Of a stretch of 64,000 nt of DNA, positions 8,387-22,801 are shown in pieces. The DNA comes from Rathayibacter sp. VKM Ac-2879 (GTDB lineage: Bacteria; Actinomycetota; Actinomycetes; Actinomycetales; Microbacteriaceae). The DNA lies in contig NZ_JADKSO010000001.1 in the NCBI RefSeq assembly GCF_015351245.1, positions 124,001 to 188,000 on the forward strand. Reading direction: 5' to 3'. Each line of letters starts with the position of its first letter. Positions within the stretch are counted from its first letter, which is position 1. The notes below the pieces were generated by a model, which did not search any database, was not told where the DNA came from, and saw nothing but the letters and a program-made list of their open reading frames with translations. The position numbers were made by a program, and so were the translations under genes.

Positions 8387-9613
8387 TCAGAGCCCCGCGG
8401 CTTGCGCCTGCAGAAGCGCGCGCGTGCGGTCGTTGCCCGCGAGGGAGGCTGCCACAGCGAACTCGGCGCGAGCCTCCTCACCCCGCCCCAGCCGCAGCAA
8501 CAGCTCGGCGCGCACGCTCGGCAGCAGGTGCGACCCCCGCAGGGCGCCGTCGGACGACAGCCGGTCGACGATCAGAAGCGCCGAGGCGGGGCCGGTCGCC
8601 ATCGACACGGCGACCGCGCGGTTGAGCTCGACGACGGGACTCGGCGCGACCCTCCCCAGCACCTCGTAGAGCAGCACGATCCGCTCCCAGTCGGTCTCGG
8701 CGACGCTCGGAGCGACGGCGTGGCACTCGGCGATCGCGGCCTGTAATCCGTAGGCGCCACGACCTCGGCCGACGCGATCGGCGCGGAGGAGCGCCGCCCG
8801 CCCGCGCTCGATCTGCGCCCGATCCCAGCGGGTGCGGTCCTGGTCCTCCAACAGCACGGGACTGCCGTCGGGCGCCGTGCGGGCCGCGAAGCGCGAAGCC
8901 TGCACCTCCATCAGCGCGAGCAGGCCGAGCACCTCCGGCTCGCGCGGCAGAAGACCCGCCAGCACGCGGCCGAGGCGCAGCGCCTCGTTCGCGACCTCGA
9001 CACGCAGCCACCGGTCGCCCGACGTGGCGGCGTACCCCTCGGTGAAGATCAGGTAGACGACTCCGAGCACCGCGTCGAGCCGCGCCTTCCACTCCGGGGG
9101 ATCAGGTACCTCGAACGGCACTCCCGCCGCCGCGAGGGACTTCTTGGCGCGGACGATCCGCTGCTGCACCGTCGCGACGGGAACCAGGAACATCCGCGCG
9201 ATCGCTTCCGTGCCGAGCCCGCCGACCATGCGCAGCGTGAGCGCGATACTCGCCTCCCTCGACAGCACCGGATGGCATGCGGTGAACACCAGTCGCAGCA
9301 CGTCGTCGTCGATCGGCTCCCAGGCCTCGTCGATGCCCTGCTCGAGGTCGTGGGCGAGGAGGCGGTACCGCTCGTCGAGCGCGGCCCGCCGCCGCCAGCC
9401 GTCGATGGCGCGGCGCTGCGCGACCGCGGTCAGCCAGGCCCCGGGGTTGCGGGGGACCCCCGCCTCCGGCCACTGCCGAAGCGCTTCGACGAGAGCGTCC
9501 TGCGCGAGGTCCTCCGCGAGCCCGATGTCGCCCGTGACGCGGGCGAGGGTCGCCACGATGCGTGCGCTCTCGATGCGCCACACCGCGGCGACGCTCGCCC
9601 GGATGTCGTCCAT
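8387..9613 (-). CDS. ECF42-type RNA polymerase sigma factor
   Basis: An extracytoplasmic-function sigma factor of the type with a long C-terminal extension and a YCII partner gene. The N-terminal region 2 (DIGLAEDLAQDALVEALRQW) and region 4 (IARMFLVPVATVQQRIVRAK) recognise the promoter. Residues about 190-408 form a TPR-like helical domain (YLIFTEGYAATSGD, VELNRAVAVSMATGPASAL) characteristic of this group. At 408 residues it is full length. ATG 9613 shares its last base with the YCII stop (TGATG), giving translational coupling. Regulation of these pairs does not use a classical membrane anti-sigma; the C-terminal domain probably takes that role. Confidence 0.92.
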   Translation of the reverse strand: MDDIRASVAAVWRIESARIVATLARVTGDIGLAEDLAQDALVEALRQWPEAGVPRNPGAWLTAVAQRRAIDGWRRRAALDERYRLLAHDLEQGIDEAWEPIDDDVLRLVFTACHPVLSREASIALTLRMVGGLGTEAIARMFLVPVATVQQRIVRAKKSLAAAGVPFEVPDPPEWKARLDAVLGVVYLIFTEGYAATSGDRWLRVEVANEALRLGRVLAGLLPREPEVLGLLALMEVQASRFAARTAPDGSPVLLEDQDRTRWDRAQIERGRAALLRADRVGRGRGAYGLQAAIAECHAVAPSVAETDWERIVLLYEVLGRVAPSPVVELNRAVAVSMATGPASALLIVDRLSSDGALRGSHLLPSVRAELLLRLGRGEEARAEFAVAASLAGNDRTRALLQAQAAGL

Positions 9614-10044
9614 CAGTCGCGGGCGGCCTGTTCCTCGCGCCAGCCCGCCTCCTTCTGCACGAACTCGTTGTCGGCGAAGTCGGCGAAGTCGCTCTCGTCC
9701 GTGACCCGGCGCACCTCGAGCTTGCTGCCGGGGGCGAGCGGGCAGCGCAGCGCCCACTCCCTCGCCTCCTCCTTCGAGGAGACCTGGATCATCCAGAAGC
9801 CGTTGAACAGCTCGTGGGTCTCGCCGTAGGGGCCGTCGGTGACAGCCGGGGGCTCGGAGGCGAAGTCGACGACGAAGCCGGTGGTCGCGACGTCGTCGGC
9901 GAGGCCGTCGCCCGCGAGCAGGATGCCGGCCTTCATCATCGACTCGTTGTACTGGCCCATCTTCGTGATGATCTCGTCGAAGGGGATCGCGGCGTACGCC
10001 TCTTTGGCAGCGTCGGTCGCGCGCATGATCAGCATGTACTTCAT
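9613..10044 (-). CDS. YCII-related (DGPF-domain) protein
   Basis: A small 143-residue ferredoxin-like-fold protein of the YCII family that nearly always travels with ECF42 sigma factors. The N-terminus MKYMLIMRA is the usual first strand. The TDGPYGETHELFNGFWMIQV stretch carries the DGPF-like motif, followed by a helix with EEAREWALRCP. It overlaps the sigma-factor start by one base and is the first gene of the pair. No enzyme activity can be assigned from sequence; it may sense a signal for the sigma factor. Confidence 0.9.
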   Translation of the reverse strand: MKYMLIMRATDAAKEAYAAIPFDEIITKMGQYNESMMKAGILLAGDGLADDVATTGFVVDFASEPPAVTDGPYGETHELFNGFWMIQVSSKEEAREWALRCPLAPGSKLEVRRVTDESDFADFADNEFVQKEAGWREEQAARD

Positions 10045-10085: not shown

Positions 10086-11564
10086 CTACTCTGGCGTCGA
10101 ACGGCGGAGGGCGATATCGACATCCGAGGGCACAGGGGGTGTGTCGGACACGAACGACGACCGCCGCACCTTGCCGGCGTCGTTCCGCAGCGGCTCCCGC
10201 ACGAGGCGCACCGACCGCAGCCGGCGCTCGCTGCCGAGCCGGGCGTTCACGGAGGCGAGGAGCGCGTCGGCATCGACCGTCGCCTCGCCGATGTCGACGA
10301 CCGCCTCGATGGCGCGGCCCAGCTCGATGTCGGGCACGCCGAAGGCGACCGCCTCGCGGACCCCGGGGTGAGCCTCAAGAGCGCGCTCGATCTCGACGGG
10401 CAAGACGGTGACACCGCCTCGCACGATCAGGTCATCGGCCCGGTCGAGCACCCACAGCCATCCGTCGGCGTCGACGCGGCCCCTATCGCCGAGGGTGTCC
10501 CACCCCTCTGGGGTCCGCGACGACGAGCCGCCGAGGTACCGGTACGCGGGCTCGTCGCCGCGATGCATCCAGATACGGCCGGCCTCGCCCGGCCCGGCCT
10601 GCGAGCCGTCGTCGCGCAGGATGCGGACCGCCGTGCCTCCGATCGGGCGGCCGACGCTGCCGGGCCGCTCGAGCCATTCGTCGCCGCGGATCATCGTGAG
10701 GCCGTTCGACTCGCTGCCGGCGTAGACCTCGAGGACCCGTTCTGCTCCGAGCCAGTCCATCAGCGCCCGCTTGTCTTCGGGAGCGCACGGCGCGCCCAGG
10801 TGCAGCACCGCCTCCAGCGAGGAGACATCGGTGCGGGCGCGCAGAGGCGAGCTCAGGAGGCGGCGGATCGTCGTCGGCACGAGCAGCGTCCAGGTCACCC
10901 GGTGACACTCGATCGCCTCGAGCACCCGGCTCGCCTCGAACCTCGGCAGAATCACGAGAGTCTGCCCCGTCATCAGCCCGCGAAACGCGTAGGTGAACGT
11001 GGCCGAGTGCATCAGAGGGCCGCTCACGAGCTGCACCCCCTCGCGCGGCAGAAACGCGGCGACGGGAGCCTCGGGGTCGAGCAGCGCCGGTCCGCTCGCG
11101 AGCACCACCTTCGGTCGACCAGTGCTGCCGGACGAGGTGGGCGCCTTCCACGAGGACGCCCACCGGTCCTCCACGAGAGACTCGGGCACCCGCTGGTCCG
11201 GGCGCCAGTCGCCGGCGCGCCACGGCACCCGGTCGGAGGCGGCGCCCACCACGAGCGCGGGCGCAGCGATCTGCTCGACCGCGGCCCGCTCCTCCGCGGA
11301 CAGCTGCGTCGATACCGGCTGCGGGATCGCACCGGCCTTCCAGATCGCGGCGCAGACGACGACGGCGTCGAGGGAGTTCGGCAACGAGACCGTGACGAGG
11401 TCGTCGGTGCCGACGCCGAGATCGCGGTAGGCACGGGCGAGACGGTTGCTCTCGCGGTCGAGCTCGACCGCGGTCAGTGCGCCCTCGTCGGCGAACGCCA
11501 CGACACGGTCGGGATCCGCCTCGGCGAGGCCCGTCAGAATGCGCGAGATCGAGCGCCGGGTCAC
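10086..11564 (-). CDS. AMP-binding acyl-CoA synthetase-like ligase, end of the Nit1C-like operon
   Basis: A 492-residue member of the ANL (adenylate-forming) superfamily that activates a carboxylic acid as acyl-AMP, then usually as a thioester. The P-loop-like motif is SSGSTGRPKVV. VYAGSESNGLT is the acyl-binding loop, GDRGRVDADGWLWVLDRADD holds the adenylation Asp and hinge, and the catalytic Lys lies in NDAGKVRRSSF. All key residues are present, so it should be active. The GTG start at 11564 overlaps the stop of the glycosyltransferase gene by four bases (GTGA), making it the last gene of the seven-gene leftward operon. The substrate is unknown; context suggests tailoring of a nitrogen-containing metabolite. 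Confidence 0.85.
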   Translation of the reverse strand: MTRRSISRILTGLAEADPDRVVAFADEGALTAVELDRESNRLARAYRDLGVGTDDLVTVSLPNSLDAVVVCAAIWKAGAIPQPVSTQLSAEERAAVEQIAAPALVVGAASDRVPWRAGDWRPDQRVPESLVEDRWASSWKAPTSSGSTGRPKVVLASGPALLDPEAPVAAFLPREGVQLVSGPLMHSATFTYAFRGLMTGQTLVILPRFEASRVLEAIECHRVTWTLLVPTTIRRLLSSPLRARTDVSSLEAVLHLGAPCAPEDKRALMDWLGAERVLEVYAGSESNGLTMIRGDEWLERPGSVGRPIGGTAVRILRDDGSQAGPGEAGRIWMHRGDEPAYRYLGGSSSRTPEGWDTLGDRGRVDADGWLWVLDRADDLIVRGGVTVLPVEIERALEAHPGVREAVAFGVPDIELGRAIEAVVDIGEATVDADALLASVNARLGSERRLRSVRLVREPLRNDAGKVRRSSFVSDTPPVPSDVDIALRRSTPE

Positions 11565-12667
11565 GAGTGGAGGCCGGGGTCGGCGCCGAGGAGGCGTCCA
11601 TAGAACCGCACATGCTGCGCCGCCACGTCGTCCCACGAGTGCGAGAACGCCAGCTCCCGCCCCGCCGCCGAGCCGCCCCCGCCGTCCAGCGCCGCCTCGA
11701 GCGCGTCCGCGAAAGACTCCGGATCGCTCCCGTACCGCACCGTGTCGCCGAAGACCTCCCGGATCACCGGCAGCTCGCGTGCCACGACGGGTACCCCCGC
11801 GGCGAGCGCCTCCATCGCCGCAAGGCCGAACCCCTCCTTGACCGACACGAAACCCAGGGCGGAGGCCCCCGCGACGAGTGCGGCGAGCCGCTCCTCCGGG
11901 ATCGTGCCGAGGATCAGCGGATCGGCACCGAGCGACACCGCTCGGCGGTCGAACTCGGCCCTGTAGTCGCGGTAGTCGAAGAGCGTCTCTCCCCCACCGA
12001 ACACCAGTGCGACGTCGTGCCCGCGATCGCGGAGGATCGCCCACGCCTCCAGCAGGTCGGTGCTGCCCTTGCGCGGCTCGATGCCGCCCAGCGCGAGCAC
12101 ATAGCGGCCGAGCTGCGATCGCCACTGCGAGGTCAGCGGGTCGCTTGCCGCGGCGGCGAACCGGGCCGCGTCCACGCCGTTCGGGATCACGGTGGGCAGA
12201 CGCCCCCAGCCCTCGCGCACCTCCTCGGCCACCGCCGCCGAGACGCACAGCAGCGCTCGCGGCAGGCGTACCGCCCGGTCGTGGCAGGCGCGCAGTTCGG
12301 GAGTCGTGAAGTCGTCGAGATGATGGACGGTGCGCACCGGAGACAGCCCCGCCGTGAGCGCCGCGTTGGCCGAGATGCAGTCCTGCGCGTGCACCACGTC
12401 GGCGTCGAGCCCGCGCAGGGCCGCGCCCATGACGGCGATCGAGCGCACGATCCTGGCGCCGACCGCCTCCCCCTCGCGACTCTCGAACGGCACCACCCGG
12501 ACCGTCACGGTGGGATCGACGGCCCGGAAGAAGGAGGCGTCGCCGTCACGCGCCAGCGTCCACACCTCGACGCCGTGCCCGGCGGCAGCGAGAGCGTCGG
12601 CGAGGGCGAGGGTGTGCACCACTCCTCCGCGCGGGCGCGTGGAGTAGGTCAGCAATGCGATCCGCAT
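11561..12667 (-). CDS. MSMEG_0565-family GT4 glycosyltransferase
   Basis: A GT-B-fold retaining glycosyltransferase of 368 residues. The N-terminus MRIALLTYSTRPRGGVVHTL matches the MSMEG_0565 family, which is found in Nit1C-like clusters. The C-terminal domain has the GT4 E(x7)E nucleotide-sugar motif at KEGFGLAAMEALAAGVP and the LALGGIEPRKG loop. The stop of the upstream nitrilase paralogue lies just before the ATG at 12667, and the downstream ligase overlaps its end by four bases, so it is translated from the same mRNA. It would add a sugar to the cluster product; donor and acceptor are unknown. Confidence 0.9.
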   Translation of the reverse strand: MRIALLTYSTRPRGGVVHTLALADALAAAGHGVEVWTLARDGDASFFRAVDPTVTVRVVPFESREGEAVGARIVRSIAVMGAALRGLDADVVHAQDCISANAALTAGLSPVRTVHHLDDFTTPELRACHDRAVRLPRALLCVSAAVAEEVREGWGRLPTVIPNGVDAARFAAAASDPLTSQWRSQLGRYVLALGGIEPRKGSTDLLEAWAILRDRGHDVALVFGGGETLFDYRDYRAEFDRRAVSLGADPLILGTIPEERLAALVAGASALGFVSVKEGFGLAAMEALAAGVPVVARELPVIREVFGDTVRYGSDPESFADALEAALDGGGGSAAGRELAFSHSWDDVAAQHVRFYGRLLGADPGLHS

Positions 12668-12668
12668 C

Positions 12669-13508
12669 TCAGCTCCGGTAGGCGTGGCCCGCGCGGTCGC
12701 GGAGGTGGTTCATCGTGCGCCGCGCCCGCGCCACCGAGGCGCCGATGTCGGCGGAGGCGAGCGCGAGCCCGCCCTTCGCCCAGGTCTTCGCGACGATCTC
12801 ACCGGCCGGGTCGACGACCTTGGCCTGGCCGAGGAACCTCAGTCCGCCGAGCACGCCCGTCTGGTTCGACGAGACGAGGTAGACCTGGTTCTCGGCCGCT
12901 CGGGCGCAGTCGTAGAGGTCGAACAGGTGGGCTTGGCGGTCATTGCGGATGCGATCGGAGCGGTCGGTGACGCTCGCGGGCCACGCGCTCAGACACGCGA
13001 GCACCTCGGCTCCGTCGAGGGCGAGCGAGCGCGCCGACTCGGGGAACGTCTTATCGAAGTCGATCAGCATGCCGAGCCTCCCGACCGGAGTGTCGAAGGA
13101 GGTGAAGTCGGAGCCCGGCAGATACGCCTCCGACTCGCCCAACGGGAGGTGCACCTTGCGGTGGGTGCCGATGACGGCGCCTCCGTGCACGCAGACGGCC
13201 GTGTTGTAGCGCAGTTCCCGGCCGCCCTCGTGGGCACGCTCGGCGATCCCGAAGCAGACCGTCATGTCTCCGGCCAGCTCGGCGACCCTCGCCACCTCGG
13301 GTCCGTCGAGCTCGACGCTCGGCGGCAGGTCGTCGGGACCCGGGTGGTGCATGTCGAGGAGGTAGCCGCCGAGCGTGGCGTCGGGCAGCACGAGCAGGTC
13401 GACGGAGCGATCGCGCGCCTGGGCGATGATGCCGGGGAGCTTGGCGAGGGTGCGCTCGAGATCGCGCCCGAAGTGCGCCGCGACCGCACCCATCACCGTC
13501 TCCGCCAT
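12669..13508 (-). CDS. Nitrilase-superfamily paralogue lacking catalytic Glu and Cys (pseudoenzyme)
   Basis: It has the full carbon-nitrogen hydrolase fold (279 residues) and is clearly related to the NitC nitrilase two genes upstream, which begins with a similar VAA(N/H)F motif. In NitC the Glu-Lys-Cys triad is E41, K120 and C152. Here the aligned residues are D43 (VLPDATLGG), K118 (HRKVHLP) and D150 (MLIDFDKTFPE). The nucleophilic Cys is therefore Asp, and Glu is Asp. Ordinary amidase or nitrilase chemistry should be lost. It may be a structural or regulatory partner of NitC, or do different chemistry. The gene lies nine bases after nitH in the operon. Gene calls by homology alone would label it a hydrolase. 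Confidence 0.88.
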   Translation of the reverse strand: MAETVMGAVAAHFGRDLERTLAKLPGIIAQARDRSVDLLVLPDATLGGYLLDMHHPGPDDLPPSVELDGPEVARVAELAGDMTVCFGIAERAHEGGRELRYNTAVCVHGGAVIGTHRKVHLPLGESEAYLPGSDFTSFDTPVGRLGMLIDFDKTFPESARSLALDGAEVLACLSAWPASVTDRSDRIRNDRQAHLFDLYDCARAAENQVYLVSSNQTGVLGGLRFLGQAKVVDPAGEIVAKTWAKGGLALASADIGASVARARRTMNHLRDRAGHAYRS

Positions 13509-13517
13509 GCGCCGAGG

Positions 13518-14807
13518 CTATCCGGCGAGGTCCGACTCGCGCTCCCGCGTGAAGCGATGCGCTTCCCGCACGCGACGGACCTCCTCCGCGAGATGTGCCG
13601 CGTCGCGGGCGATCGCCTCGAAACGACCGGATCCCCAGGTGTGCAGCCAGGGCAGCCCGAGGAACGAGAGCCCCGGGGTGCTCGTGACTCCGCGCTGGTG
13701 CGTCGGGTGGCCCGCCCCGTCGAAGACGCCGACCTCGACCCAGCGGTAGTCGGAGCGGAAGCCGACCGCCCAGATCACGCTGGTCACGCCCGCCTCGGCG
13801 AGGTCGAGCCGCTCGTTCTCGGCCTCGGGCCGCCAAACGGGCTCGTAGCGGGCCTCGACGGGTGCCTCGATCCCGTGAGCGGCGATGTACCGGTCGATGT
13901 CGTCCTTGATCGACTCCGCGACCGAATCGGCGTAGTCGAGCGACGCCTCCGCGGTGGGGGTGAAGCGAAGACGTGCCCCCTCCGCCTCCGCGAGCCGGCC
14001 GTAGAGGTGCATGCCCTCCCGGGCGAAGGCTCGCAGATCGATGTCGCGCCCGCCTCCTCGGCCCGTCACGTAGTGGTTCGTCGACTCCCGCTTGGTGAGA
14101 CCGCCGACCTGGGCGTGGACGGGGACGTCGTAGACGCCCATGTCCTGCAGCCAGGCGACGCAGTCGCGACCGCGGTAGAACCTTGCGACGCGGGGCGCGC
14201 TGCCGAGGGCGAGGTGCACGTCGCGGCCGGCGAGGAACAGGTCTTCGGCGATCTGCGCGCCCGACTGCCCGCTGCCCACCACGAGCACGCCACCGGGAGG
14301 GAGCGCCTCGGCCGAGCGGTAGTCGGCCGAGTGGAGCTGCACCATGTCGAGCGGGAGGCGGGAGGCGACCGCCGGCAGCACCGGCCGGTGGTAGCCGCCG
14401 GTCGCCACGACGACCTGGTCGGCCGTGATGGCACCGGCGCTGGTGACCAGCTCGAAGCCTCCGCCGGCCCTCTCGCGCAGACGGGTGACTTCCACGTGCT
14501 CGGCGACGGGAGCGTCGAAGGTGGTGGCGTAGCGCCGCACCCAGGCGTGCACCTCGTCGCGGGTCATGAACCCGTCCGGGTCGGGGCCGTCGTAGGGGTA
14601 GCCCGGCAGACGGCACTGCCAGTTGGGCGTGACGAGAGTGAAGGCGTCCCAGCGGCGGTCGATCCAGTCGTGCCCGATCGTGGTGCGCTCGAGGACGACG
14701 TGGTCGGTGCCGTCGTCGGTGAGGAGGCGGCTGAGCGAGAGCCCGGCCTGACCGCCTCCGATGATCGCGACCTCGACGTGCCGCCCGGGGCTGATCTCGG
14801 CGCTCAT
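13518..14807 (-). CDS. nitH: MSMEG_0569-family flavin-dependent oxidoreductase (NitH)
   Basis: A 429-residue FAD- and NADPH-dependent enzyme resembling flavoprotein monooxygenases. The FAD-binding Rossmann motif is at the N-terminus (VAIIGGGQAGLSLSRLL), the NAD(P)H-binding one near residue 175 (VLVVGSGQSGAQIAEDL), and a C-terminal ATG-like motif is IWAVGFRSDYRW. Length fits the family. Start ATG 14807 overlaps the nitG stop by four bases. In Nit1C clusters this is NitH, thought to carry out an oxidation, possibly at nitrogen; the substrate is not known from sequence. Confidence 0.92.
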   Translation of the reverse strand: MSAEISPGRHVEVAIIGGGQAGLSLSRLLTDDGTDHVVLERTTIGHDWIDRRWDAFTLVTPNWQCRLPGYPYDGPDPDGFMTRDEVHAWVRRYATTFDAPVAEHVEVTRLRERAGGGFELVTSAGAITADQVVVATGGYHRPVLPAVASRLPLDMVQLHSADYRSAEALPPGGVLVVGSGQSGAQIAEDLFLAGRDVHLALGSAPRVARFYRGRDCVAWLQDMGVYDVPVHAQVGGLTKRESTNHYVTGRGGGRDIDLRAFAREGMHLYGRLAEAEGARLRFTPTAEASLDYADSVAESIKDDIDRYIAAHGIEAPVEARYEPVWRPEAENERLDLAEAGVTSVIWAVGFRSDYRWVEVGVFDGAGHPTHQRGVTSTPGLSFLGLPWLHTWGSGRFEAIARDAAHLAEEVRRVREAHRFTRERESDLAG

Positions 14808-15103
14808 CGCGGCACCTCCGGCAGGGGCGGGTCCATCGCCAGCACGCGCACCAGGCCGCCGTCGAAGCGGCGCGAGGTCTCGACGATCTCGCTCTGCTGC
14901 TGCATCGCCGAGGTGCAGACGAAGCCGAACCGTTCGCGCACCCGATCGGAGGCGAGGCTCAGGGCCTCGCTCGAGCGCGAGACGAAGTCGGCGACCGGGT
15001 ACTGCGCTCCGGCCTTGAGGTAGTCGTGCATCACAAGGCTCGGCGAGTAGCAGCGCTCCTCGGAGCCGTCGGGCCAGCGCACGTGGAAGGTCATCTCAGG
15101 CAT
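14804..15103 (-). CDS. nitG: MSMEG_0570-family nitrogen starvation response protein (NitG)
   Basis: A 99-residue protein with the typical start MPEMTFHVRWPDGSEERCYS and a conserved YLKAGAQYPVADFVSRS stretch. It is probably a compact alpha/beta protein; no catalytic motif is known. It overlaps the end of nitC by eight bases and the start of nitH by four, so translation is tightly coupled. Two cysteines (C18, C63) are present. Its constant presence beside NitH in these clusters suggests a partner or carrier role, but this is inference. Confidence 0.9.
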   Translation of the reverse strand: MPEMTFHVRWPDGSEERCYSPSLVMHDYLKAGAQYPVADFVSRSSEALSLASDRVRERFGFVCTSAMQQQSEIVETSRRFDGGLVRVLAMDPPLPEVPR

Positions 15104-15974
15104 CGACCAGGCCTCCGTTCCAGATGCGGTCGATGTCGTAGGCGTCGGGTCGGCGGTCGCGGAGGTGGAACATCCCGCCGCGCATCGCCTCGAAGGTGCC
15201 ACGCACATCGATGTCGGCGACGGCCATCCCTGCTCCGAGCAGCGTCGTCGCGAGGATGTTGCCTCCCGGGTCGACCACCTTGGCGTTGCCGACGTACCGC
15301 AACGAGCCGAAGGTGCCCGACTGGTTCGACGCGAGCCAGAACACCTGATTGTCGAGGGCCCGCGCGATGTCGAACTGATTGAAGCGGTACGTCCAGCGAT
15401 CGTCCTGCAGGTTCTCGGCGGTCGCCGTGCGCGCCGCAGGCCAGGCGGAGAGCGAGGCGATGATCTCGGCGCCGTCGAGGGCCATCGAGCGCGCCGCCTC
15501 CGGAAACGCCTTGTCGTAGCAGATCTGCAGCCCGACGCGACCGACGGGGGTGTCGAAGGCGCCGTACCCGGGCCCTGCCGAGTACGACATGTGCTCGCCC
15601 AGCGGCTGATGCACCTTGCGGTAGCTGCCGTAGACCTGACCGCCATCGAGAAGGGCGGCCGCGTTGTAACGCGTCTCGCCGTCGTCGTCGAGCTCGCAAA
15701 AGCCGATGGCGACCATCAGGTCGCCGACGATCTCCTGCACTCGACGCAGCTCCGGTCCGTCGAGCCGGATGGCCGGCGGGAGCGACCGCGACGTGGTCTT
15801 GACGGTGTCACCGTGGTTGCCGAGCGAGGAGAGGTATCCGCCGATCGCGGCCTCGGGGAGCACGAGGAACTCGATTCCCCGCTCGCGAGCCTCCTGCGCC
15901 AGCGAGGCGATGAGCGCGTAGTTCTGATCGAGGTCGCGAGTGAAGTTCGCCGCGACCGATCCGACGAGGGTCAT
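15096..15974 (-). CDS. nitC: Nit1C-type nitrilase (Sll0784/MSMEG family)
   Basis: A carbon-nitrogen hydrolase of 292 residues with an intact catalytic triad: E41 (VLPEAAIGG), K120 (YRKVHQP) and C152 (LQICYDKAFPE). It begins MTLVGSVAANFTRD as in the Nit6803/Sll0784 group, whose cyanobacterial member hydrolyses nitriles. It follows nitB by nine bases and overlaps nitG by eight. In the Nit1C cluster of cyanotrophic Pseudomonas this gene is needed for growth on cyanide as nitrogen source; here it probably acts on a nitrile or amide made or scavenged by the same cluster. Confidence 0.93.
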   Translation of the reverse strand: MTLVGSVAANFTRDLDQNYALIASLAQEARERGIEFLVLPEAAIGGYLSSLGNHGDTVKTTSRSLPPAIRLDGPELRRVQEIVGDLMVAIGFCELDDDGETRYNAAALLDGGQVYGSYRKVHQPLGEHMSYSAGPGYGAFDTPVGRVGLQICYDKAFPEAARSMALDGAEIIASLSAWPAARTATAENLQDDRWTYRFNQFDIARALDNQVFWLASNQSGTFGSLRYVGNAKVVDPGGNILATTLLGAGMAVADIDVRGTFEAMRGGMFHLRDRRPDAYDIDRIWNGGLVDA

Positions 15975-15983
15975 CGACGCCCC

Positions 15984-16517
15984 CTACAGGTTGTAGGTGG
16001 AGTTGATGATGGCGCCCTTGCGGGCGTAATGGATGAGCGCGTCCTGCACGTCGAGGGGGTGGCAGGGGATGCACCCCTCGATGAGGTCCTCCTCGCGCAG
16101 GCCGTGCAGCGCCATGCCGAAGCGACAGACGAAGACGCGGTTGCCCTCGCCGATGAAGGTCTCGATGGCGTTGTTGAGGTTCTGCTCGCCCGGGAATCCG
16201 GAGTCGCCGACGGTCGGGAAGCCGCGGGTCGCCATCGCGTTGATGGTGCCGGGTCCGTAGAAGTAGAGAGCCGACTCGTAGCCCTTGCGGGCCGCCCGAG
16301 TGGCCTGCAGCACGGCGACGAAGCTGACCGAGGACTCGTGCGCGATGCCGTGGACGAGCGTGAGATAGGACTCCCCCTCCTCGGCCTGATAGTCGGGGAA
16401 CACCTTGGTCGAGCCGTAGAGATTGCTGCCCTTGGGAAGCGACGGGTGGGCGATCTCGGATCGCGACTTCTCGATGTTGGCGGTGACCTGGTCTTCGATC
16501 TCCTGCGAAACGGGCAT
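15984..16517 (-). CDS. nitB: MSMEG_0572/Sll0783-family nitrogen starvation response protein (NitB)
   Basis: The first gene of the leftward operon, with an excellent ribosome site (AGGAGGAAG) before ATG 16517. The 177-residue protein has the DsrE-like alpha/beta look, with ALYFYGPGTINAMATRGFP and a Cys-containing IEGCIPCHPLDVQDAL segment near the end (C151, C154). The homologue Sll0783 is strongly induced on nitrogen starvation in Synechocystis. Its biochemical role is not established. The order nitB-nitC-nitG-nitH downstream and nitD-nitEF divergent is a Nit1C arrangement split over two operons. Confidence 0.92.
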   Translation of the reverse strand: MPVSQEIEDQVTANIEKSRSEIAHPSLPKGSNLYGSTKVFPDYQAEEGESYLTLVHGIAHESSVSFVAVLQATRAARKGYESALYFYGPGTINAMATRGFPTVGDSGFPGEQNLNNAIETFIGEGNRVFVCRFGMALHGLREEDLIEGCIPCHPLDVQDALIHYARKGAIINSTYNL

Positions 16518-16661
16518 GTGCTTCCTCCTGGTTGCGGGTACGCCGAATGAGCTCGACGAGCGATGTGCGGAGCTTCCGGGGGCGTTGAGACGACGCGGGA
16601 TGAGGGCCGCCGGATGCAGCGGTGGTGCCGAGTGGAACGACCTCAGTCAAGCCGATGGTGT

Positions 16662-16677
16662 GTTTCGAAGTGGTTTC
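16662..16677 (-). promoter_or_regulatory. GlnR-type box facing the nitB operon
   Basis: On the minus strand the site reads GAAAC, six bases, GAAAC, which fits the actinobacterial GlnR half-site pattern (Gnn-AC, six bases, GaAAC; equally AC-n9-AC). It is about 145 bases upstream of nitB. GlnR activates nitrogen-limitation genes in actinobacteria. Binding is inferred. Confidence 0.5.
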
Positions 16678-16730
16678 GGGCGGAAGAAGCCTGTGTGACA
16701 GCCGTTCCGTAACGAGACCGCTTCGGGCTC

Positions 16731-16746
16731 GTCATCGACTCGAAAC
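16731..16746 (+). promoter_or_regulatory. GlnR-type box facing the nitD operon
   Basis: On the plus strand the site reads GTCAT, six bases, GAAAC, a one-mismatch fit to the GTnAC-n6-GaAAC GlnR consensus. It lies about 105 bases upstream of the nitD start and points towards it, mirroring the minus-strand box at 16662-16677. The arms GTGTTTCGA (16660-16668) and TCGAAACAC (16740-16748) are exact inverted copies. Confidence 0.5.
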
Positions 16747-16849
16747 ACTCGTGTCGTTGACTCGGGGGCGAGACGAACGCATCGACATCCCGGCCGCGTG
16801 CTGCGCGGCCCGTCAGGCCCGCCCTCGGCGAGCCACGAAGGAGTCATCC

Positions 16850-17923
16850 GTGACCGATCTCGGGATCCCCACGCTCCGCACTCGCGTCGACCTCGCCCTG
16901 AAGGGCATCCACGTCGAGGCTCCCGTCCACCGCGAGGCCGGTGCCGGACCGAGCGACGACGGACACGTCGTCCTCGGCGGTCTCGGCGCCGCGATCCCCG
17001 TCAACCCGACGAGCCCGTATGTCGTGCGCGGCGACCGGCTGCTCCTCGAGGGCGCCGACATCGGCCTCGACGTCACGCCGGTGCGCCGCCCTCGCTTCTA
17101 CGATCTCGAGACCGCCGACGGCGTCTCCTACGAGAAGATCGCCCGCCTGCACGGGCGTGACATCCTCGCGACCACCGTCGTGCAGACATGCATGCGCTAC
17201 GACGAGGCCGAACGCTGTCGCTTCTGCGCCATCGAGGCGTCGCTCGAGGCCGGGTCGACCATCGCGGTGAAGACCCCGGCGCAGCTCGCCGAGGTCGCGG
17301 AGGCCGCGGCGCGGCTCGACGGGATACGCCAGATGGTGATGACCACCGGTACCTCCAAGGGGCGCGACCGCGGGGCGACCCATCTCGCGCGCTGCGTCCG
17401 TGCGGTGCTCGACGCGGTGCCTGGGCTGCCGATCCAGGTGCAGTGCGAGCCTCCGTCGGACGTGTCGGCGCTGCAGGCCTTGAAGGATGCCGGTGCCGTG
17501 TCGATCGGCATCCACGTCGAGTCGATGGACGACGACGTGCGCCGCCGCTGGACCCCCGGCAAGGCGCGGGTGACACTCGACGAGTACCGCTGGGCGTGGC
17601 GGGAGGCGGTGCGGATCTTCGGCCGCAACCAGGTCTCGACCTACCTCCTCGTCGGCCTCGGTGAAGACCCGGACGAGCTCGTCGCGAGCGCGCAAGAGCT
17701 GATCGAGATGGGCGTGTACCCGTTCGTCGTTCCGTTCCGGCCGCTGCGAGGGACGCTCGCGACCGACGTCGACCATGCGCTGCCTCCGGCCGGCTCGCTG
17801 CTCGAGAGCGTCAGCGCGCAGGTCGCTTCGCTGCTCATCGCGGCGGGGATGCTCAGCAGCGGTCAGAGCGCCGGCTGTGCCGCCTGCGGCGCGTGTGGAG
17901 TGCTCAAGACGGCTGGTGCGTGA
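16850..17923 (+). CDS. nitD: MSMEG_0568-family radical SAM protein (NitD)
   Basis: A radical S-adenosylmethionine enzyme of 357 residues, started at GTG 16850 behind AAGGAG. The cluster-binding cysteines are C114, C123 and C126, a CX8CX2C spacing instead of the usual CX3CX2C. The TIM-barrel core follows (TTGTSKGRDRG, QCEPPSDVSALQALKDAG, STYLLVGLGEDPDEL). A second cysteine group near the end, C343, C346 and C349, may hold an auxiliary cluster. It is the first gene of the rightward operon, overlapping the GNAT-AIR fusion by one base. It probably catalyses the central carbon rearrangement or bond formation of the pathway; the substrate is unknown. Confidence 0.93.
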   Translation: MTDLGIPTLRTRVDLALKGIHVEAPVHREAGAGPSDDGHVVLGGLGAAIPVNPTSPYVVRGDRLLLEGADIGLDVTPVRRPRFYDLETADGVSYEKIARLHGRDILATTVVQTCMRYDEAERCRFCAIEASLEAGSTIAVKTPAQLAEVAEAAARLDGIRQMVMTTGTSKGRDRGATHLARCVRAVLDAVPGLPIQVQCEPPSDVSALQALKDAGAVSIGIHVESMDDDVRRRWTPGKARVTLDEYRWAWREAVRIFGRNQVSTYLLVGLGEDPDELVASAQELIEMGVYPFVVPFRPLRGTLATDVDHALPPAGSLLESVSAQVASLLIAAGMLSSGQSAGCAACGACGVLKTAGA

Positions 17924-19305
17924 TGCAGCTCTCGATCCTCGAGGGGACGCGACGGGCGGCACCCTTCACCGTGACGCTCGCCGGAGAGCGCGAGATCGCG
18001 GCCTACCTGGCCTTGCGGCGCGAGGTGTTCGTGGCCGAGCAGGGCTTGTTCGCGGGCAGTGACGCCGACGACTCCGACGACGACCCGCGCCGCCTCGTGC
18101 TGGTCGCGGTGACGGCCGAGGGCGACGTGCTCGGAGGCGTGCGGCTCGCGCCGGTCGAACGCGGTCGCGATCTCGGCTGGTGGACGGGCAGCCGGCTCGT
18201 CGTGTCCCGCGCGGCCCGCGGTGGCGCGGGCATCGGCGCGGCGCTGGTCCGCGCGGCGTGCGCCGAGGCGGAGACGCGTGGAGTCCTGCGCTTCGAGGCC
18301 TCGGTGCAGACGCGCAACGAAGTGCTGTTCCGGCGGCTCGGCTGGGACCGCATCGGCGAGGTGACCGTCGCCGGCGCTCCCCACGTGCGCATGCGATGGC
18401 CGATCGACCGCCTCGATCGCGCGGCCAGATCGGCCAAGGCGGCGCTCGGCTCGCTGCTTGCTCCGTTCGCCGCGCGCGGCGGTCTCGGCGGCGCGGGCTT
18501 CGTGGGTGATGACGGCGCACCCGTGCCCGGTACCCACCTCATCGCCGTGTGTGACGCGATCGTCCCGTCCATGGTCGAGCGGTATCCAGAATGGGCAGGG
18601 TGGTGCTCGGTCCTCGTCAACGTCAACGACCTCACGGCGATGGGGGCGAGCGGAGTCGGGCTGGTCGATGCGATCGGGGCGCGCGACGCCTCCTTCGCCG
18701 CCCGCGTCGTGGAGGGAATCGCCTCGGCGGCGCAGGCCTGGGGGCTACCGGTGCTCGGCGGCCATACGCAGCTCGGCGTTCCGGCCGCGCTCAGCGTGAC
18801 GGGGCTCGGACGCACGGACTCTCCCGTCCCCGGCGCCGCGACGGTCGGCGACGAGCTGTCCGTGACCGCCGATCTCTCCGGTGGCTGGCGGCCCGGCTTC
18901 GCCGGGACGCAGTGGGACTCGACCTCGAGGCGTCGCAGCGATGAGCTGCGGGCGATGGCCGACTCCGTGGGTTTCGCGCGGCCCCGGGCGGCGAAGGACG
19001 TCAGCATGGCGGGGCTCGTCGGCACGGTCGGCATGCTCGCCGAAGCGAGCGGAGGAGGCGCGGTGCTCGACCTCGCGGCCGTCCCGACTCCGAGGGCCGC
19101 AGCAACCGCCGACTGGCTGGCATGCTTCCCGGGCTTCGCGATGATCACCGCCGATCGACCGGGCGAGAGCCGCATGGGAACCCCGATGACGTCGACAGCG
19201 GCGGTCGGACGGGTCGTGGCCGAGCCGGGTGTGCGCCTCCGGTGGCCCGACGGCGTCGAGACGGTCGCGATCGCGGGCGCCGTGACAGGCCTCGGCGCGG
19301 CCTGA
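17923..19305 (+). CDS. Fused GNAT acetyltransferase and AIR-synthase-like protein (NitE-NitF fusion)
   Basis: Residues 1 to about 165 form an MSMEG_0567/Sll0786-type GNAT domain, with an acyl-CoA loop near SRAARGGAGIGAALVRAACAEAE. Residues about 170-460 form a Sll0787-type AIR-synthase/PurM-like domain (ILVNVNDLTAMGASGVGLVD is represented here by VNVNDLTAMGASGVG, then LPVLGGHTQLGVPAALSVT). PurM-like domains bind ATP and activate amides or carbonyls. In Pseudomonas Nit1C clusters these are two genes, nitE and nitF; here they are one 460-residue protein. ATG 17923 is coupled to the nitD stop (TGATG). A longer start at 17893 is open but lies inside nitD. Confidence 0.9.
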   Translation: MQLSILEGTRRAAPFTVTLAGEREIAAYLALRREVFVAEQGLFAGSDADDSDDDPRRLVLVAVTAEGDVLGGVRLAPVERGRDLGWWTGSRLVVSRAARGGAGIGAALVRAACAEAETRGVLRFEASVQTRNEVLFRRLGWDRIGEVTVAGAPHVRMRWPIDRLDRAARSAKAALGSLLAPFAARGGLGGAGFVGDDGAPVPGTHLIAVCDAIVPSMVERYPEWAGWCSVLVNVNDLTAMGASGVGLVDAIGARDASFAARVVEGIASAAQAWGLPVLGGHTQLGVPAALSVTGLGRTDSPVPGAATVGDELSVTADLSGGWRPGFAGTQWDSTSRRRSDELRAMADSVGFARPRAAKDVSMAGLVGTVGMLAEASGGGAVLDLAAVPTPRAAATADWLACFPGFAMITADRPGESRMGTPMTSTAAVGRVVAEPGVRLRWPDGVETVAIAGAVTGLGAA

Positions 19306-20832: not shown

Positions 20833-21615
20833 TCAGCGACGTCGCTGGATTTCTCCCGTTGCGGCCGTGCGGATCTTCACCGGCAAGACCTCCCGCGCAA
20901 TGGGCTCAGCGACCGGTAGCGCGTCGAGCAGCGCGCGCACCACTGCGGCGGAGCGGTCGGCGGCGTCGTCGACGTGCGCCTCGAACTCGCCCGGAGCGCA
21001 GAGGTCCGAGATGCCGCGCACCGAGACGAAGGGCAGCCCGTGCACGTGAGCGGTCTGCGCGAGCGCCACCGACTCCATGTCGGTCGCGAGTGCTCCTGGG
21101 AAGTCGCTCCGCACACGCTCGACGTGCGCGCTCGAGACGAAGGTGTCGCTCGAAACGATCAACCCGCGACGCACCGTCACCTCTGACCCGTCGGGCAGGG
21201 TCGCCACGAGCCCGTCGACGAGCGCCGGCGCGTACCCCGGGTAGCGAGGCAGCATCCCCGGCACCTGGCCGAGCGCATAGCCGAAGGCGCGAGCGTCGGC
21301 GTCGGTCTGGACGTACTCGCCACCCACCACCACGTCGCCCACACGCACCTCGGTGCCGAGACCACCGGCCGTCCCTGCGCTGACGATCAGCGGGGCCGCG
21401 TCGCCCGCACGGAGGATCGCGGCGGTCACTCCGCCGGCCGCGTTGATCAGGCCGATCCCGGTGCGCACGAGCAACACCGAACGACCGTCGAGCTCGATCT
21501 CCCACTGTCGGGCCTGCCCCACGGTGCGCTGTTCGGAGGCGACGCTCGCGGCGGCGAGGAACGGCGCCGCCTCCTCGTCCATCGCGACCAGCACGATCGC
21601 GTCGACGCCCCTCAC
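20833..21615 (-). CDS. mtnN: 5'-methylthioadenosine/S-adenosylhomocysteine nucleosidase
   Basis: Cleaves the glycosidic bond of methylthioadenosine and S-adenosylhomocysteine, giving adenine and S-ribosylhomocysteine, the substrate of LuxS. The 260-residue protein has [13 protein letters not shown] at the start (catalytic Glu region), [11 protein letters not shown], the MES motif of the active site ([17 protein letters not shown]) and the late catalytic Asp ([13 protein letters not shown]). GTG 21615 overlaps the luxS stop by four bases (GTGA), so the two genes that act in sequence are translationally coupled. Confidence 0.92.
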
Positions 21616-22109
21616 GCGGTGACCGTCTCCCACTCCGCGCGCCGCGCGAGGAACGCGCGCGCCGCCTCCTGTGCCCCCTCGAGGGAGTGGTTCGCGCCCC
21701 AGCCGCACTGGGTCTCGTTCGCGGCGGGGACCTCGTCGGCCTCCGTGATGTCCGCGAGCGTCGCCTCGATCAGATCGAGCACCTCGGCGAGCTCCGGCTC
21801 CCCCGAGAGGATCAGGTAGAAGCCGGTCTGGCAGCCCATCGGCGAGAAGTCGACCACGCGGTCGGAGTGGTTGCGCGACTTCTCGGCGAAGAGGTGCTCG
21901 AGAGAGTGCACGGTGGGCATCTCGAGGTGGGCGCGGTTGGGCTGGGTGAAGCGCACGTCGTACTTGACGAGGTGATCGCCCGCCGGGAGGGTCTTCGCGT
22001 CGGCGAGTCGCACATACGGCGCGGCGACGGTGCGGTGGTCGAGGTTGAACGACTCCACGTTCATGCGCGGCTGATCCACGGTGGTCTCCTTCGCTGAGGT
22101 CGCCTCCAT
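21612..22109 (-). CDS. luxS: S-ribosylhomocysteine lyase LuxS
   Basis: Converts S-ribosylhomocysteine to homocysteine and DPD, the precursor of autoinducer-2. The zinc ligands H68 and H72 are in HSLEHLF with catalytic E71. C135 (NETQCGWG) is the third ligand, and the catalytic Cys is C93 (MGCQTGFY). The 165-residue protein starts at ATG 22109 behind GCGGAGG. It pairs with the nucleosidase to complete the activated methyl cycle; whether the cells signal with AI-2 cannot be judged from sequence. Confidence 0.96.
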
Positions 22110-22123
22110 TGTCCTCCGCCTGG

Positions 22124-22801
22124 TCACTCCCCCGGTACGAAGCGGTACCCCATGCCCGCCTCCGTCAAGAGGTAGCGCGGGCGCGCGGGATCGGGCTCGA
22201 GCTTCTTGCGCAGCTGCGCGACGTACAGGCGGAGGTACCCCGTGTCGGTCACGTGCGCCGGCCCCCAGATCTCGGCGAGGAGCGAGCGGCGGGTGACGAG
22301 CTTGCCCGCATTGCGGATCAGGATCTCGAGCACCTGCCACTCGGTCGGCGTGAGCCGCACGGAGGCGCCGTCGCGCGTCGCGCTCTTGGCCACCAGATCG
22401 ACCGTCACCTCCCCGATCACCACGAGAGGCTCGCCGTCCGCGGGCTGCACGCGTCGCGACAAAGCACGGATCCGCGCGAGCACCTCGTCCATCGAGAACG
22501 GCTTGGTGACGTAGTCGTCGGCGCCCGCATCGAGCGCGCCCACCTTGTCGGCTGCTCCCGTGCGCCCCGACACCACGAGGATCGGCGCGCTCGTCCAGCC
22601 GCGCAGACCGTGGATCACCTCGACGCCGTCCAGGCGCGGCATGCCGAGGTCGATCATGTACAGGTCCGGCCGCTCGTCCACCGCGCGGTTGATCGCCTCC
22701 GTTCCATCTCCTGCAGTGACCACGTCGTAGCCGCGCGCGGTCAGCGTGATCCGCAGGGCGCGGAGGATCTGCGGGTCGTCGTCGGCGATCAGGATCTTCA
22801 T
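22124..22801 (-). CDS. kdpE: KdpE response regulator
   Basis: An OmpR-family response regulator that turns on kdpFABC at low potassium or high osmolarity. The receiver domain has the acidic pair at ADDDPQ, the phospho-acceptor Asp in [13 protein letters not shown] and the Lys of DYVTKPFS. The C-terminal winged helix is typical ([33 protein letters not shown]). Length is 225 residues. ATG 22801 overlaps the kdpD stop by four bases, and it is the last gene of the leftward kdp operon. Confidence 0.95.

Follow-up and report, generated by a model that had tools for sequence, protein, structure and literature searches.

The 64,000-nucleotide stretch of Rathayibacter sp. VKM Ac-2879 analysed here (the window; contig NZ_JADKSO010000001.1) carries at positions 10086-19305 a nine-gene cluster, which its gene families place among the actinobacterial, gpr-type relatives of the Nit1C cluster, gpr being the published name of MSMEG_0565-0572 of Mycolicibacterium smegmatis, for GlnR-dependent peroxide resistance (Yang et al. 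2018, PMC6039565). Beyond its gene set, the locus holds two GlnR-type boxes as motifs, a carbon-nitrogen (CN) hydrolase paralogue, CNH2, that has lost its catalytic cysteine, no NitC nitrilase, and an ANL (acyl-CoA/AMP) ligase of a cluster-bound family. It is rather probable, judging from these predicted features, that the cluster encodes a biosynthetic-type pathway under nitrogen control, whose product is tailored with glycosyl and acyl groups. The cluster as such was already known as gpr; what is new is a pair of CN hydrolases in place of the supposed nitrilase, with a conserved, putatively dead CNH2 partner, and a dedicated ligase added to the set. No report of such a dead paralogue was found in the open-licence literature searched.

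Coordinates and family models agree with a preliminary description of this DNA, which had proposed two divergent operons, the leftward one continued by overlapping or abutting genes (Table 1). All nine genes and their strands were right and the packing is near-continuous, with leftward neighbours overlapping or 1-9 bases apart, and a 332-bp gap separates seven leftward genes (in order from nitB: nitB, CNH1, nitG, nitH, CNH2, glycosyltransferase and ANL) from two rightward ones, nitD and nitEF. Six NCBIfam models, those of NitB, the radical SAM protein, the GNAT protein, the AIR-like protein, NitG and the flavoprotein, scored over their cut-offs, and the glycosyltransferase model did so besides; the proposed fusion of NitE and NitF stands, both models passing within one protein. 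NitB is weakly DsrE-like (Pfam DsrE 20.7 bits, just under the cut-off of 22.7). The closest named relative found by NitH was Rathayibacter sp. VKM Ac-2754, at 90% identity. The GTG start of nitD has a Shine-Dalgarno-like stretch in front; the radical SAM cysteines of this protein are spaced Cx8CxxC, as in 133 of 144 NitD rows of a redundant set, and it also passes the 'variant_rSAM' model NF045502 (149 versus 125 bits).

Table 1. Genes and predicted regulatory motifs of the cluster, in window coordinates
Feature	Position	Strand	Family, motif or remark
ANL (acyl-CoA/AMP) ligase	10086..11564	-	PF00501 163.3 bits, PF13193 31.7 bits; GTG start overlaps glycosyltransferase stop
GT4 glycosyltransferase	11561..12667	-	MSMEG_0565 family; TIGR04047 426.5 bits, cut-off 259.85
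CNH2, CN-hydrolase paralogue, putative pseudo-hydrolase	12669..13508	-	MSMEG_0566 position; catalytic Cys and Glu both Asp
nitH, flavin-dependent oxidoreductase	13518..14807	-	MSMEG_0569 family; TIGR04046 646 bits, cut-off 498.35; overlaps nitG
nitG	14804..15103	-	MSMEG_0570 family; TIGR04042 125 bits, cut-off 79.85; start overlaps CNH1 stop
CNH1, carbon-nitrogen hydrolase	15096..15974	-	MSMEG_0571 position; PF00795; Glu-Lys-Glu-Cys site intact
nitB	15984..16517	-	MSMEG_0572/Sll0783 family; TIGR04044 240.8 bits, cut-off 109.85
GlnR-type box GAAACCACTTCGAAACA towards nitB	16661..16677	-	8/8 fixed bases of published motif; TTGAC 10 nt on, starting 16650
GlnR-type box GTCATCGACTCGAAACA towards nitD	16731..16747	+	7/8 bases; TTGAC 9 nt on, at 16757
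nitD, radical SAM protein	16850..17923	+	MSMEG_0568 family; TIGR04043 501.5 bits, cut-off 303.7; GTG start at 16850
nitEF fusion, GNAT plus PurM/AIR-synthase-like domain	17893..19305	+	MSMEG_0567; start at 17893 or 17923 (ATG); NitE part TIGR04045 108.2 bits, cut-off 68.45; NitF part TIGR04050 433.4 bits, cut-off 312.2

Eight of the nine genes belong to the same families as MSMEG_0565-0572 (five single-gene families, the nitEF fusion and two CN hydrolases), the gpr order from 0572 to 0565 could be read in the Mycolicibacterium relatives L050 and L061, and, as in gpr, a predicted GlnR-type box lies upstream of nitB. Whereas gpr is one co-directional operon, the window has two divergent operons, with one more GlnR-type box and an ANL gene in addition; two divergent operons are also found in loci L001-L006 and L008, and L007 and L009, likewise divergent, carry nitB on the opposite arm. 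Among 80 loci fetched by NitH similarity (L001-L080), all counts on which are conditional on NitH, each gpr gene was present in 79 or 80, except nitG in 70. In ten Nocardia loci (L012-L014, L016, L023, L024, L026-L028 and L076) nitG was not found and the other seven genes were present. Since gpr of M. smegmatis has the same set, a cluster of this phylum normally includes the glycosyltransferase and a second CN hydrolase, and the ANL gene is the sole extension; these three genes had been described together as an extension of Nit1C, a view that holds for the ligase.

With Nit1C the window shares the NitB, NitD, NitE, NitF, NitG and NitH families, and differs from it by the NitE-NitF fusion and by having, instead of a subfamily 1 nitrilase, two other CN hydrolases, one of them without the nucleophile. 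It had been claimed that all seven Nit1C functions are encoded, but NitC is missing: CNH1 reached 36.6 bits against the NitC/Nit6803 model TIGR04048 (cut-off 502.6), CNH2 was not listed for this model at E 0.001, and the model scored over its cut-off in none of 22 nitB-bearing actinobacterial genomes. By these models neither CN hydrolase of the window is NitC. True nitrilases are known to be marked by the motif CWE, and the catalytic cysteine stands in the context ACWEHYN in four proteobacterial Nit6803 proteins and ICYDKAF in CNH1. Four proteobacterial plasmid Nit1C loci (Klebsiella L082, Pantoea L083, Burkholderia L084 and Acidisoma L085) all carried the core genes, and two of them the glycosyltransferase, but they differ from the window in having a Nit6803-type nitrilase and separate nitE and nitF genes. 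Podar et al. 2005 (PMC1199592) stated that the Nit1C cluster is confined to subfamily 1 nitrilases, described a glycosyltransferase gene between ORFs 5 and 6 in Burkholderia and Rubrivivax, and called the role of the gene set unknown.

The two CN hydrolases of the window are 47% identical to each other and differ in their catalytic residues. In CNH1 the four-residue site is intact in 82 of 82 rows, and in 123 of 123 rows of a wider set that is partly redundant and includes several loci of one genome. In CNH2, for which 81 rows were available (the window and 80 of 85 loci; L008 was left out because its contig breaks off at this point, with CNH1 as the sole match), the nucleophile position holds Asp in 80 rows, Ser in one and Cys in none, and the catalytic Glu position holds Asp in 76, His in three and Tyr in two, with the Lys and the second Glu kept in all 81. 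The triad of the window thus reads Asp-Lys-Asp, compared with Glu-Lys-Cys in functional hydrolases of the nitrilase superfamily. In the 107 CNH2 rows of the wider set the nucleophile position was Asp in 103, Ser in three and Cys in one, and the Glu position was His or Tyr in five; the lone Cys row comes from L137, whose cluster shows one CN hydrolase. The loss is kept across Microbacteriaceae, Mycobacteriaceae, Gordoniaceae, Nocardiaceae and Nocardioidaceae. CNH2 may therefore be described as a putative conserved pseudo-hydrolase, and the idea of two working nitrilases is not supported. For MSMEG_0566, the counterpart of CNH2, a role in nitrogen assimilation as a putative aliphatic amidase has been put forward (PMC6039565); the catalytic Cys of CNH2 is missing in the window and in six of six Mycolicibacterium loci.

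When 11 genomes were searched with the window's CNH1, CNH1, CNH2 and two proteins of genome G129 scored at least 228 bits and all other matches at most 95. A 57-row tree (20 loci, the window and 15 others) placed CNH1, CNH2 and the two G129 proteins in one group (100/98) and, within it, the CNH2 rows in another (100/99). It does not settle the root among the CNH1 rows, and some of the branches to outside rows are long; all 15 comparison CN hydrolases keep the catalytic site. Tree and residues together would fit one duplication and one nucleophile loss. G129 (L137, L187) has a cluster with one CN hydrolase, catalytic residues intact and no glycosyltransferase match, and a second intact CNH relative elsewhere in the genome; its arrangement may resemble the state before the duplication.

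CNH2 could alternatively be re-tooled instead of dead, with Asp for Cys and Asp for Glu catalysing another reaction (e.g. hydration, dehydration or acyl transfer) on the same substrate. The constancy of the new Asp (80/81) and of the Lys and second Glu (81/81), above the 68% mean column identity of a 36-row alignment, would be expected of such an enzyme. However, to our knowledge no nitrilase-superfamily member with an Asp nucleophile is known, and the Ser, His and Tyr replacements seen in the redundant set also speak against a new active site, so that we regard a re-tooled CNH2 as unlikely.

As for regulation, induction of the M. smegmatis genes and GlnR binding upstream of MSMEG_0572 are reported in two studies (PMC4222082, PMC3662644), and the motif scored here was the M. 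smegmatis motif with eight fixed bases from the latter. Each of the divergent operons is faced by a predicted GlnR-type box. The half-sites of the first box and the TTGACTG behind it are invariant in seven aligned sequences (the window and six loci), and five of 500 shuffles of the window region reach 8/8 bases. At least seven of the eight bases were matched upstream of nitB in 56 of 79 regions, against a mean of 14.3 and a maximum of 23 in 30 rounds of dinucleotide shuffles, and all eight in 23 of 79, against a mean of 0.47 and a maximum of two; the shuffles replaced a random-stretch control (mean 9.6 of 79) and are less favourable. The other 23 of the 79 regions had no match at 7/8, and L032 (Microbacterium indicum) and L040, for example, none even at six bases.

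The glycosyltransferase was found in 79 of the 80 NitH-fetched loci, which upholds its place in the biosynthetic-type unit proposed in the preliminary description. The ligase, which was to belong to the same unit, is dedicated in part of the relatives only: counted as in the cluster at 250 bits or more, it was present in 35 loci, absent from 41 and undecidable in four that were cut, yet it was found in all 22 Microbacteriaceae genomes that carry the window's cluster type. These come from 299 sampled Microbacteriaceae genomes, 23 of which had nitB (the 23rd, G690, has another cluster type and is cut), and this sample, like that of 396 Actinomycetota genomes described below, was drawn by the NitB family and is less biased than the NitH-fetched loci. 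All 22 had the glycosyltransferase and 21 had CNH2, the exception being L154; the ANL match scored 355-723 bits in 21, and G575 gave a partial match of 106 bits at a contig end. Among the 35 loci the ligase gene lies after the glycosyltransferase in 24, between nitH and nitD in eight (Gordonia, Mycolicibacterium) and between nitH and nitB in three (Williamsia); each of these three places adjoins a core gene, and a fourth place occurs in L159.

The ligase family itself also appears bound to the cluster. In a search of 35 genomes with the ANL protein, from which locus L042 was left out, the best match in nine ANL-bearing cluster genomes was the cluster's own (306-831 bits) and the next matches reached at most 222 bits, except one of 319 bits in G716; in nine Microbacteriaceae genomes without nitB the matches reached at most 117 bits. 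Of 93 NCBIfam families that matched the window's ANL, none of the 25 listed was over its cut-off; its best solved relative was 4lgc, a bile acid-CoA ligase, and the adenylation motif [ST][ST]G[ST]TGxPK was kept in 56 of 57 ANL matches, weak matches and redundant loci included. By these predicted proteins and their positions, the ANL gene is dedicated to the cluster and varies in where it sits among the other genes. In proteobacteria an AMP-binding gene follows nitH in three of the four loci (Klebsiella, Pantoea and Acidisoma), and in Burkholderia L084 that place is taken by Pnap_2097 and methylmalonyl-CoA mutase genes. Those of Klebsiella and Acidisoma encode proteins that are weakly like the window's ANL (E 3e-6 and 8e-8; Pantoea was not compared), and therefore ANL enzymes seem to have been recruited more than once; a repeated gain of acyl-group enzymes fits a tailoring step.

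Further cluster types came from the 396 Actinomycetota genomes, in which nitB occurred in 19: five had the CNH1 and CNH2 type (two with ANL) and 12 a third type, one had a lone CN hydrolase and one was undecided. Ten third-type loci (L132, L133, L135, L136, L138, L140 and L142-L145) all carried NitB, NitD and NitE-like proteins, nine of them a NitF-like one, and no CN-hydrolase, Nit6803 or NitH match of at least 50 bits was found within the locus stretches examined. They also carried an orphan protein of 222 amino acids (9/10), a CoA-disulfide-reductase-like flavoprotein (8), an MSMEG_0565-type glycosyltransferase (7), an amidohydrolase (7) and an XRE regulator (6), and oxamate carbamoyltransferase AllG or AllH matches lay near the cluster in nine of ten. 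An amidohydrolase, assigned to PF04909 in L080 and sharing 47-52% identity with its third-type counterpart, is encoded directly upstream of nitB and in the same direction; it occurs in 16 of the 80 loci of gpr type (L010, L011, L029, L040, L042, L044, L046, L062-L064, L067, L071, L073, L074, L078 and L080) and also in seven of the 22 Microbacteriaceae genomes (L146, L148, L149, L153, L154, L155 and L161); in the window the gap and nitD occupy that place. The idea that it stands in for the CN hydrolase in the third type was dropped, because it coexists with the CNH pair in the 16 loci; it adds one more optional member to the cluster and offers a clue to the chemistry.

We suggest that in nitrogen starvation GlnR would turn on a pathway in which NitD (radical SAM), NitF (PurM-like, ATP-using), NitE (GNAT) and NitH (flavin) could build and oxidise a small nitrogen-containing molecule. 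CNH1 would hydrolyse a C-N bond as a hetero-oligomer with CNH2, which would keep the fold and much of the pocket and could not form the usual thio-acyl intermediate. The glycosyltransferase would add a sugar to the product, and the ligase, in Microbacteriaceae and some other families, would activate a carboxylate that acylates it. Because deletion of the homologous M. smegmatis operon gives peroxide sensitivity under nitrogen starvation, as Yang et al. report (PMC6039565), the product probably acts, by analogy, in redox or nitrogen homeostasis. A more specific form of this proposal, which we consider doubtful, would make CNH1 and CNH2 an obligate hetero-oligomer, with CNH2 rewired to a ligand-binding or newly catalytic subunit, in a GlnR-controlled pathway to a glycosylated and, in Microbacteriaceae, acylated redox-active metabolite. 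The hydrolase would then be exchangeable: the fixed part of Nit1C across phyla would comprise NitB, NitD, NitE, NitF and mostly the glycosyltransferase, and the part of the C-N hydrolase would be filled by NitC in proteobacteria and by the CNH pair here, the third actinobacterial type having neither.

Several observations weigh against the biosynthetic pathway or its parts. The core does not need ANL, because it is absent from 41 of 76 informative loci; ANL identities track NitD identities weakly (Spearman 0.18, compared with 0.51 for the glycosyltransferase); and the 319-bit protein of G716, 41% identical, lies outside the cluster stretch. No terminator was found between ANL and the next leftward gene, no full sigma-70-like promoter was found in the gap, and the L154 contig does without CNH2. 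The terms biosynthetic and hetero-oligomer are what we infer from the gene set. The remaining points concern a catabolic role, in which cyanide, nitriles or amides would serve as nitrogen source, with the glycosyltransferase and ANL genes being hitch-hikers or detoxifying intermediates. The homologous Pseudomonas Nit1C cluster (nitBCDEFGH) is reported to be required for cyanide assimilation (PMC11049912). By score, the nearest solved structures to CNH1 and CNH2 come from archaea and carry the names hypothetical protein, 'Nitrilase' or 'CN hydrolase' in their deposits; they stand ahead of or beside the next ones, which are N-carbamoylputrescine and N-carbamoyl-D-amino acid amidohydrolases. At L140:15062-16365, beside the glycosyltransferase of this distantly related third-type cluster, lie genes for the beta (PF02211, PF21006) and alpha (PF02979) subunits of a nitrile hydratase, with no nitrile hydratase match in the other third-type loci among the matches listed. 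Control by nitrogen starvation would suit a catabolic role as well. Nevertheless, the nitrilase credited with activity is over its cut-off in 0/22 nitB-bearing actinobacterial genomes, CNH2 has lost its nucleophile, and a glycosyltransferase present in 79 of 80 loci is hardly expected of a hitch-hiker, so that we hold the catabolic role to be rather unlikely. For CNH1 we favour an amide or carbamoyl group over a free nitrile as substrate, which is a preference, not a result.

A very improbable alternative to the biosynthetic pathway is a redox system proper, in which the flavoprotein and its partners would raise NADPH directly, as Yang et al. suggest, with a selenoprotein arising by read-through of the MSMEG_0571 stop into 0569. 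Their study reports that gpr deletion makes nitrogen-starved M. smegmatis peroxide-sensitive and that gpr expression raises the NADPH/NADP ratio, and leaves open which enzymes are responsible for the effect (PMC6039565). The CNH1 stop is TGA in 81 of 81 loci and the frame behind it is open into nitH in 54. The frame fails to reach nitH in the other 27, however, including three of six Mycolicibacterium loci; TGA is the usual stop here (NitG 74/75, NitD 82/84); where nitG is present, the CNH1 stop sits within the Met-Pro-Glu start of nitG, invariant in 56 of 56; and glycosyltransferase, GNAT, radical SAM and PurM-like genes would be superfluous for a plain NADPH source. At the CNH1/nitG junction of the window (15096-15103), UGA read-through is thus not conserved across relatives and is possible where the frame is open.

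Two neighbouring regions were also considered. A YCII-like gene at 9613-10044 was rejected as a cluster member, with a match in one of 85 loci and a second, later, in L152. On the other side and not far from the radical SAM cluster, at 20833-22340 on the reverse strand, a nucleoside-phosphorylase-superfamily gene (PF01048), by eye a methylthioadenosine/S-adenosylhomocysteine nucleosidase, adjoins a LuxS gene (PF02664).

That CNH2 has lost its catalytic Cys raises doubt about the amidase role in nitrogen assimilation suggested for MSMEG_0566-type proteins. ANL offers a handle on the product, since a difference of one acyl group would be expected between strains that carry it and strains that lack it. 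With the nitrilase as an exchangeable part, held in actinobacteria by a pair with one putatively inactivated subunit, the question put to this cluster family would move from cyanide hydrolysis to a pathway with a product.

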